Shown here in pieces: positions 33,815 to 56,430 of a DNA stretch of 64,000 nt (position 1 is its first letter; every line of letters starts with the position of its first letter). The position numbers were made by a program, and so were the translations under genes. The DNA is from an uncultured Latescibacterota bacterium (GTDB lineage Bacteria; Latescibacterota; UBA2968): NCBI GenBank assembly GCA_951812755.1, contig OX638329.1, positions 2,093,339-2,157,338 on the forward strand, written 5' to 3'. The notes under the pieces were generated by a model, which was not told the origin of the DNA, did not search any database, and saw nothing but the letters and a program-made list of their open reading frames with translations.

Positions 33815-33971
33815 ACTGACGTTACGCAGGTCTGGTGTTTGTGTCATGCTGAGCGGAGTGGAACGGAGCCGAAGCATCTGTTCCACCTGCGTTGGTAGTA
33901 GATTTTTCGACTCCGCTGCGCTCCGCTCAAAATGACAGGCCCATGATATTATGCAGGTGCGTAACATCAGT
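33815..33971 (+). mobile_element. Small TIR element (MITE), copy 1
   Basis: 157 bp bounded by ACTGACGTTACGCA and TGCGTAACATCAGT, flanked by the 5-bp duplication GATTA (33810-33814 and 33972-33976). The interior is an imperfect hairpin (CATGCTGAGCGGAG... with ...CTCCGCTCAAAATGAC) and has no gene. It is about 90% like copy 3 in opposite orientation. It inserted upstream of the DUF433/DUF5615 pair; the rest of 33665-33998 shows nothing else. Confidence 0.9.
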
Positions 33972-48108: not shown

Positions 48109-48246
48109 ATGCCAGTACTAAAAAGTATTAAGATCAGTGGTTTTCGGTCCATCAAAGAGACGACCATAGAACTCCGTCCACTCAATGTTTTGATCGGTGC
48201 CAATGGTGCCGGTAAGAGCAATCTCATAGCCTTCTTTAAGTTGGTA
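48109..48246 (+). pseudogene. AAA ATPase (AAA_21 type), 5' piece
   Basis: From ATG 48109 (behind AGCAGG) the frame reads ISGFRSIKETTIEL and LNVLIGANGAGKSNLIAFF (Walker A), typical of RecF/OLD-like AAA_21 ATPases. At 48247 it runs into a transposable element and meets a stop at 48274-48276. Removing the element joins it in frame with the piece at 49548. Confidence 0.9.
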
Positions 48247-49547
48247 ACTGATATTACGCAAGAACCATCGCGATAGCCACATGGTCAAGCGATACATATC
48301 TTTCACATAACCACTCATTCATCGCTCAAAATGTACTCTTTGCGCCTTTCATCTGTGCCCATCTGCGGCCATTCCTGTTTTCACAGGGACATGCCTACGG
48401 ATTAAATTCAGGTTGTGAACAAGTGTGCAATACAGCATATTTAAAGCACAATGCGGTATTTAGACATCTACCAATACAAAATATAGCTCAATTTTTGGAG
48501 GAATTACGTTTTTTGGCCTGCTATTTGCTTTGTGTCTGAGTGTTGCGCGTGTCCCACGCACTCATCCCATCAGACGCGAGGCATCTCACATGGCAGAATT
48601 CGATACGATTTCCAAACACCTGATTCAGAAATATCCGGACGACTTTGCTGGCTTCACCCTCGGGCGCGAGAACGTTGAAGTTCTTGCAGTCATTGACACA
48701 GAACAACTCACTGTTGAAGCACGCCAAACCGATAGCCTGATTCGCGTGCGTATCGATGGCGAGGAGGTATTGGTCCACAACGAGTTTCAAACGACTGACA
48801 GCACCAATCCACCTATGCCGCGCCGCATGGCTGGCTATGTTGGACGTGCCATTGAGCATCACGGGTTGCCGATCTATTCCAACGTGATCTACCTGCGTCC
48901 CAATGCTGGGCGGCGCGATCTCGGGTACTATGTCCAGGAGCATCTCGACTACGAAATCACGATTCGGTATCGCGTGATTAGACTGATCGAAATAGAAGGT
49001 CAACCCATCCTGAACGCGGGACTTTCAGGGCTGATTCCTTTTACGCCGTTGATGAAGCCACCAGAGGGGATGGCTTCGGATGTGTGGTTACATCAGTGTA
49101 TTCACACGGCTCGGACACGCCCTATCGCCCGGTCATATAGGGCGGATTATCTGGCTGGGATGGTGGCCTTGAGTGAGTTGGTATATGAAACCGAAACGAT
49201 TTCTGATATTATTTTTCAGGAGGGCATCATGGATCTGATCCGCGAATCATCTCTTTTTCAATCCCTTACCCAACAAAGCAGAGAGGAAAGTTTTGAGCAG
49301 GGCAGAGAGCAAGGCGAAAAAAGAAGCACGATCGAAGCTATCCTTGATGTGTTGGAGATTCGATTTGACCTGAGCGAAGCGCACCCTCTATCCACACGTA
49401 TTACCGCCATCGACGATTTGCAATATCTCAAGCAGCTACACCGTGCGGCAATACAGTTGCCCAATATCGAGGCATTTCAGCGCGTGTTAGATGCGTGAAG
49501 TGATTTTCCAATGCAGGACGATATACAAGACACTGCGTAACATCAGT
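48247..49547 (+). mobile_element. 1.3-kb TIR element carrying an Rpn-type nuclease gene
   Basis: 1301 bp with ends ACTGATATTACGCA (48247-48260) and TGCGTAACATCAGT (49534-49547), flanked by TGGTA (48242-48246 and 49548-49552). It interrupts an AAA ATPase gene; excision of the element plus one TGGTA restores KLVNELMGG in frame, giving exact borders. The ends match those of three small copies in the window. The only gene inside is the Rpn-like nuclease at 48590. Bases 48261-48589 hold no gene I can recognise. No DDE or HUH transposase is visible. Confidence 0.92.
48590..49498 (+). CDS. Rpn-family PD-(D/E)XK nuclease/putative transposase
   Basis: I place the start at ATG 48590 (MAEFDTISKHLI) with GAGG upstream; the frame extends 20 codons further. 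The 302-aa product has the core of the Rpn/PDDEXK_2 family: D48 or nearby (QTDSLIRVRIDGEEVLVHNE), then HNEFQT (E-x-Q in place of E-x-K) and RRMAGYVGRAIE (Q/R-x3-Y helix). A coiled charged stretch EESFEQGREQGEKRST near 235-250 is typical of the family. Rpn proteins promote recombination and were once called transposases. It is the only gene inside the TIR element and may be either the mover or a passenger. Confidence 0.82.
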   Translation: MAEFDTISKHLIQKYPDDFAGFTLGRENVEVLAVIDTEQLTVEARQTDSLIRVRIDGEEVLVHNEFQTTDSTNPPMPRRMAGYVGRAIEHHGLPIYSNVIYLRPNAGRRDLGYYVQEHLDYEITIRYRVIRLIEIEGQPILNAGLSGLIPFTPLMKPPEGMASDVWLHQCIHTARTRPIARSYRADYLAGMVALSELVYETETISDIIFQEGIMDLIRESSLFQSLTQQSREESFEQGREQGEKRSTIEAILDVLEIRFDLSEAHPLSTRITAIDDLQYLKQLHRAAIQLPNIEAFQRVLDA

Positions 49548-49909
49548 TGGTAAATGAATTGATGGGCGGACGGCTTCAGCAACATATTGGGCGACGGGAC
49601 GAGCCACGGGCAATCTGCCTGATTGCGCTACTGCTACAACCGAAAGAAAATCTTCCATACTTGATAGTGGTGGATGAACCAGAACTCGGACTACACCCGT
49701 ATGCGCTCGATGTAATTGCGTCGCTATTTCAAGCAGCAAGTAACCAGACGCAAGTCCTCGTCAGTACGCAGTCCAGCGCGTTTCTCAACGCTTTTGAGCC
49801 AGAGGACATTGTGGTTGTCGAGCGCAATGATGAGGCTACAGAGTTTATCAGGCCAGATGCCAAAAAACTTGACGCATGGCTGGAAGACTATTCGCTTGGA
49901 GAGATCTAG
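49548..49909 (+). pseudogene. AAA ATPase (AAA_21 type), 3' piece with internal deletion and nonsense codon
   Basis: The piece continues the 48109 gene: NELMGGRLQQHIG (just after Walker A in relatives) is followed at once by RAICLIALLLQPKE and LIVVDEPELGLHP (Walker B), which in intact relatives lie ~200 residues later. An internal deletion is therefore likely. The frame stops at TAG 49907-49909, where relatives continue WEKNVIGGG; here EKNVIGGG follows the stop in the same frame, so TGG became TAG. The gene is dead at three points. Confidence 0.85.
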
Positions 49910-51718: not shown

Positions 51719-51925
51719 ACTGATGTTACACAGGTCCCGCGTTTCTGTCATGCTGAGGCGGGCGCAATGAATCTCCTGCGCCCAACACCCGATAGGCTGA
51801 CGAAGCATCTTTTACCCCTGAAGTAATAGATGAACTGCTACGCAGTTGTACCCCGCTCCTTCGACTCCGCTGCGCTCCGCTCAGAATGACAGGCCCATTA
51901 TATTGTGCAGATGCGTAACATCAGT
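51719..51925 (+). mobile_element. Small TIR element (MITE), copy 2
   Basis: 207 bp from ACTGATGTTACACA to TGCGTAACATCAGT, flanked by TACTT (51714-51718 and 51926-51930). It is longer than copies 1 and 3 by an internal segment that includes TTGTACCCCGCT, the flank of the AACTGGCC palindromes. It ends 22 bases before the start of the heparinase-like gene and may have replaced its promoter. The remainder of 51534-51947 shows nothing else but a lone TIR-like end. Confidence 0.9.
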
Positions 51926-56274: not shown

Positions 56275-56430
56275 ACTGATTTACGCATAGGTACAATACA
56301 ATGGGCCTGTCATTTTGAGCGCAGCGCAGCGGAGTCGAAAAATCTCCTACTAACACAGGTGGAAAAGATGCTTCGGCTCCGTTCCACTCCGCTCAGCATG
56401 ACACAAACACCAGACCTGCGTAACATCAGT
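56275..56430 (-). mobile_element. Small TIR element (MITE), copy 3
   Basis: 156 bp from ACTGATTTACGCAT to GCGTAACATCAGT, flanked by AAAGG (56270-56274 and 56431-56435). In reverse orientation it is ~90% like copy 1. The right AAAGG is part of the Shine-Dalgarno of the following PhyH gene, so insertion duplicated a piece of the ribosome site. Confidence 0.9.

Follow-up and report, generated by a model that had tools for sequence, protein, structure and literature searches.

The window, a stretch of 64,000 nucleotides from the genome of an uncultured Latescibacterota bacterium (contig OX638329.1), exhibits a 1301-bp insertion (position 48247 to 49547) that is very probably a mobile insertion cassette with ends of the ISAba11 group, presumably moved in trans and carrying as its passenger a remote Rpn-type gene, a probable toxin-antitoxin system. 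Its 14-bp ends, ACTGATATTACGCA on the left and TGCGTAACATCAGT on the right, are inverted copies matching at 13 of 14 positions, and TGGTA stands just outside both as a 5-bp target duplication (Table 1). The precise borders of the original prediction were thereby confirmed, as was its claim of a single gene: the rpn-type gene is the only one between the ends, and no transposase gene was found inside the element. Since that gene is alone there, with no DDE transposase, we regard the element as a non-autonomous derivative and not as an IS of the ISAba11 group. IS ends and duplications around a passenger that lacks a transposase, the features by which mobile insertion cassettes are recognised, are all present. 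Identity as a MITE was rejected for an element of 1301 bp with a conserved gene, as MITEs measure at most a few hundred bp and have no coding capacity.

The insertion lies in a reading frame of the AAA ATPase type. When the flanks are joined and one TGGTA is removed, they read ...FFKLVNELMGG..., and the orthologous ATPase gene of two species of the host's genus (G003 and G007, 88% DNA identity) crosses this junction without any insert. An empty site thus exists, and the intervening DNA is absent from both of these orthologues. The orthologues are open frames of 408-426 codons. Because the window ATPase lacks about 194 codons relative to them, between the Walker-A and Walker-B parts, it is best described as a relict with a deletion of its own, not as an intact gene cut in two. 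The predicted exact rejoining of an interrupted ATPase frame holds for the KLVNELMGG junction.

Table 1. Features of the cassette and its surroundings, and related elements (positions in the window unless a genome is named).
Feature	Position	Strand	Remark
MITE, same ends	33815..33971	.	GATTA both sides
5' part of interrupted AAA ATPase relict	48109..48246	+	
Left target duplication copy TGGTA	48242..48246	.	single diverged copy at G003/G007 empty site
Left terminal inverted repeat ACTGATATTACGCA, ISAba11-group end	48247..48260	+	end comparison
Leader, common to rpn paralogues	48293..48589	+	most paralogues begin at about element position 42-53
Passenger gene, 302 aa, Rpn-type PD-(D/E)XK nuclease, RpnL-like	48590..49498	+	remote assignment
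Putative active-site codons D48 ... E65-x-Q67	48731..48790	+	predicted strands 2 and 3
Internal Shine-Dalgarno AGGAGG, 5 bases 5' of internal ATG	49218..49223	+	36/36 full-length copies
Internal in-frame start and C-terminal frame, 89 aa, RpnS-like, putative intragenic antitoxin	49229..49498	+	
Four-residue repeat tract FEQG REQG	49292..49315	+	number varies between copies
Right terminal inverted repeat TGCGTAACATCAGT	49534..49547	-	end comparison
Right target duplication copy TGGTA	49548..49552	.	
3' part of ATPase relict, separate internal deletion of about 194 codons	49553..49909	+	
MITE, same ends	51719..51925	.	TACTT both sides
MITE, left end one base short	56275..56430	.	AAAGG both sides, read from sequence
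OY282377.1 rpn cassette copies	L263, L268, L270, L273, L276-L279, L283		

A genome-wide search for the ends, one of the checks proposed originally, found the exact 14-bp end 81 times in the 6.53-Mb host genome against 0 for a reversed-pattern control; when one mismatch was allowed, the counts were 207 and 2. Chance occurrence of the ends is therefore excluded. Many of them stand in facing pairs 45-260 bp apart, which are MITEs without a gene. In 0.80 Mb (12% of the host genome, in regions chosen around ends), 37 of 58 facing pairs are flanked by 5-bp duplications that are perfect (27 pairs) or differ at a single base; the duplications mostly begin with T. One MITE of 45 bp (L083, G000:C1:2846088-2846132) consists of little beyond its two ends, with perfect TATTC duplications. 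End pairs of 892 bp and 2485 bp, which overlap short elements or have an end in common with them, were set aside as probable chance pairings.

One end elsewhere in the host genome adjoins a DDE transposase fragment. A plasmid search with this fragment returned a protein annotated as "group ISAba11 transposase" in Cyanobacterium, with relatives in Acinetobacter and Polaromonas; these three genera belong to phyla or classes other than that of the host. The 14-mer ACTGATGTTACGCA is the exact terminus, identical in all three, of these DDE ISs, two of which exhibit perfect 5-bp duplications (L103, TATTT; L104, ATTTA). Duplications of 5 bp have been reported for ISAba11 (PMC7885321). An intact ISAba11-type transposase of 347 aa occurs in a genome of the same genus (G005), scoring 356 bits with the IS701 model (cut-off 250); its IS has the same ends, the left one with one base changed. 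Another intact relative with the same ends is found in G058, of the same class as the host. Based on the database annotation, the ends and the duplications, we assign the ends of the element to the already catalogued ISAba11 group of the IS701 family. It had been foreseen that the ends might match a catalogued IS with a deleted transposase, and half of this was found: the ends are those of a known IS, and the interior is an unrelated passenger. As a separate observation, a 353-aa transposase is present in no fewer than 32 copies in a one-contig genome of the same genus (G008). It shares about 29% identity with the ISAba11-group transposase, and several copies contain internal stop codons.

The passenger gene has 38 matching stretches in the host genome, and its closest loci in the named genome collection are in MAGs labelled Candidatus Latescibacterota or Gemmatimonadota. 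Scans of the 302-aa window protein against Pfam, NCBIfam and PADLOC gave no match; five of 22 relatives of the window protein weakly matched PF04754 (Transposase_31; best E-value = 0.013). The predicted fold (mean pLDDT 85) runs helix-strand-strand-strand-helix-strand. Strands 2 and 3 carry D48 and E65-x-Q67, an arrangement that fits PD-(D/E)XK nucleases. A profile alignment to E. coli RpnA/B/C lands on this D...ExQ motif, at a weak level (E-value = 0.019, probability 2.5%). A PDB sequence search with the passenger profile returned nothing, and Foldseek with the predicted structure returned weak matches only, including XisH, Cap4, BstEII and TDP2. The passenger is likely, though not certain, to be a remote Rpn-type PD-(D/E)XK nuclease gene. 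We thus keep the predicted Rpn-type reading, with its label as a remote match. The nuclease part exhibits dN/dS values of 0.09-0.31 relative to the window copy and is under purifying selection.

According to Zhong et al. (PMC10327210), genes of the rpn family have two products, the full-length nuclease and a C-terminal inhibitor made from an internal start; four-residue repeats, whose number varies, lie 8-20 residues past that start. The passenger exhibits corresponding features. AGGAGG and an in-frame ATG are located at the same place in all 36 aligned full-length copies, four-residue repeats follow the internal start, and the C-terminal lengths mostly differ by multiples of four residues. 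The K-E-x-x-M internal start of the passenger is found likewise in E. coli rpnA and rpnB. The glutamate codon of this motif is always GAG, compared with 55% of glutamate codons overall; since one other conserved glutamate column is nearly as uniform (97% GAG), the argument for the internal start rests on the whole motif. Several derivatives in the host genome (L071, L073, L074, L075 and one partial unit within L070) have wholly or largely lost the nuclease part and retain the internal start together with the RpnS frame. One of them, L071, is a complete RpnS-only cassette with both ends. These derivatives are possible stand-alone antitoxins. The N- and C-terminal halves of L069, L068 and L065 diverge very differently from the window gene (for L069, dS of 1.86 and 0.48 for the two halves), and this strongly unequal divergence suggests that the RpnS part may have been exchanged between lineages. 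Taken together, the passenger is probably an intragenic toxin-antitoxin with a predicted RpnL nuclease and RpnS inhibitor; nuclease activity, toxicity and inhibition, and a role in phage defence would follow from this resemblance.

We consider it rather unlikely that the mobile cassette instead carries a PD-(D/E)XK gene with a different function, in which codon choice would have produced the internal start incidentally. The Rpn homology, which is below family thresholds, the second uniform glutamate column and a promoter scan inside the element and its gene that stayed at chance level would all agree with such a passenger; the first of these, together with the absence of a strong Foldseek match, also weighs against the toxin-antitoxin cassette that we favor. 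However, the Shine-Dalgarno sequence and ATG are unchanged throughout the 36 copies even though dS between clades reaches 1.4-2.1, the four-residue repeats are at the published place, and start and frame are retained in the RpnS-only derivatives.

The original prediction had offered two readings of the element as a whole, a new kind of autonomous element or a carrier moved in trans. The former, with the Rpn-type nuclease acting as the transposase on these ends, is very improbable. That rpn is the only gene inside the element speaks for it, as do the former annotation of Rpn proteins as transposases and their link to RecA-independent transfer (PMC5350276). Yet these are ISAba11-group ends: a related genome encodes an intact DDE transposase of that group, and the same termini enclose DDE ISs that have no rpn. 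They also bound dozens of MITEs with neither rpn nor any other gene, so Rpn need not be inside the moving element. In addition, many rpn copies lack such ends, and published work offers no hint of transposition by Rpn (PMC10327210). Movement of a carrier in trans remains the best reading, and a candidate transposase for such mobilisation exists in G005.

Other copies of the cassette were identified. One in another species (L119 in G010) has both ends and TAGTA duplications; the internally deleted L071 (host genome, 6512729-6513512) has both ends and TAATA duplications, and its empty site is present in G002. With two ends and perfect 5-bp duplications each, the window copy, L119 and L071 confirm, as far as sequence can, movement as a unit. 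It is extremely improbable that two ISAba11-type MITE ends inserted separately on either side of rpn by chance, with the gene never mobilised together with them. In favor of this view, the host genome is full of such ends, and numerous rpn copies without an end start near element position 42-53. The view is contradicted by the perfect duplications just outside both ends in three independent copies and the empty sites at two of them, as well as by a right end and a 41-bp left end that several copies have in common.

Further copies of the cassette retain one end only. Right-end fragments in the host genome (L076) and in G009 (L221) are 98% and 96% identical to the window copy, respectively, and L214 (444410-444458), with the left end and the rpn leader and neither an rpn gene nor a right end, appears to be a remnant. 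The rpn leader (window 48292-48338, and 20 places in the host genome) begins with GTACATATCTTTCAC and holds a facing ATGTAC about 40 bases past its start; where copies have no IS ends, this leader forms their left border. Of the rpn flanks, 11 of 94 on the left and 11 of 112 on the right have ISAba11 ends above the random threshold. The view that most rpn copies carry these ends was consequently rejected, and so was the view that the ends are the hallmark of a single rpn clade. Their distribution on the rpn tree is scattered, with nine changes, at least five of them forced, on account of which we read the ends as lost or exchanged many times among rpn copies. As most copies are without these ends, the ISAba11-ended cassette explains just part of the spread of rpn, which also counts against the main reading.

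A second, unrelated IS type appears to carry rpn as well. In a related complete genome (OY282377.1), rpn copies lie between two repeats of about 117 bp, in a unit of about 1.5 kb that terminates in GAGTCCCTAAC/GTTAGGGCTTC and is flanked on both sides by TAA, in one case TTA, as a 3-bp duplication; there are about nine such sites. The same ends also bound an IS5-family transposase gene in L275, next to one rpn copy.

We thus propose that an intact ISAba11-type IS, either once resident in the lineage or brought with incoming DNA, would have supplied a DDE transposase that recognised the ends, moved the cassette in trans, as we infer, and left the 5-bp duplication. Against this stands the host genome of today, in which a fragment and no intact ISAba11-type transposase was found. 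The full frame of the passenger would yield the nuclease RpnL and the internal start the C-terminal inhibitor RpnS; the cassette would be a vehicle for a hitch-hiking rpn, with Rpn not its transposase. It is a more speculative and quite unlikely extension that an addictive, phage-fighting nuclease-inhibitor pair keeps the cassette after loss of the transposase, RpnS-only cassettes spreading as mobile antidotes. If true, toxin-antitoxin cassettes would be a self-maintaining class of non-autonomous element on several IS families.

Genes of the rpn type occur in 34 bacterial phyla and move between genomes (PMC10327210). The published survey describes no inverted repeats and no target duplications around them, and hitch-hiking was merely suggested (PMC10327210). 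The ends of the element are known, being of the ISAba11 group; inverted repeats and duplications around an rpn-type gene are new relative to that survey. An rpn-type gene is thus placed in defined transposition units, of one IS family in the host and another in a relative, and the way in which such genes jump thereby becomes open to direct testing. Mobile insertion cassettes are thereby extended to likely toxin-antitoxin passengers, with one concrete route for the spread of rpn.

The element resembles members of the ISAba11 group (IS701 family) in its 14-bp ends and 5-bp duplications, and differs from them in lacking a transposase and carrying an unrelated gene. With the ISAba11-end MITEs of the host genome it shares ends and duplications; those are 45-260 bp long and contain no gene. 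The mobile insertion cassettes MIC231, qnrD and qnrS2 (PMC3913671) likewise combine IS ends, a target duplication and a passenger without a transposase. They belong to another IS family and carry a peptidase or resistance gene where the present element has an rpn-type gene, for which we infer mobilisation in trans from sequence. The passenger shares with the RpnL/RpnS genes (PMC10327210) the putative D...ExQ motif, the internal Shine-Dalgarno start, the four-residue repeats and stand-alone RpnS forms, but is just remotely similar in sequence and, unlike the surveyed rpn genes, is surrounded by inverted repeats and duplications. Tn3-family transposons (PMC7157771) also carry toxin-antitoxin pairs on a transposable element. 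In contrast to the present element, which has no transposase, they encode their own, and the pair is located inside the transposition module.
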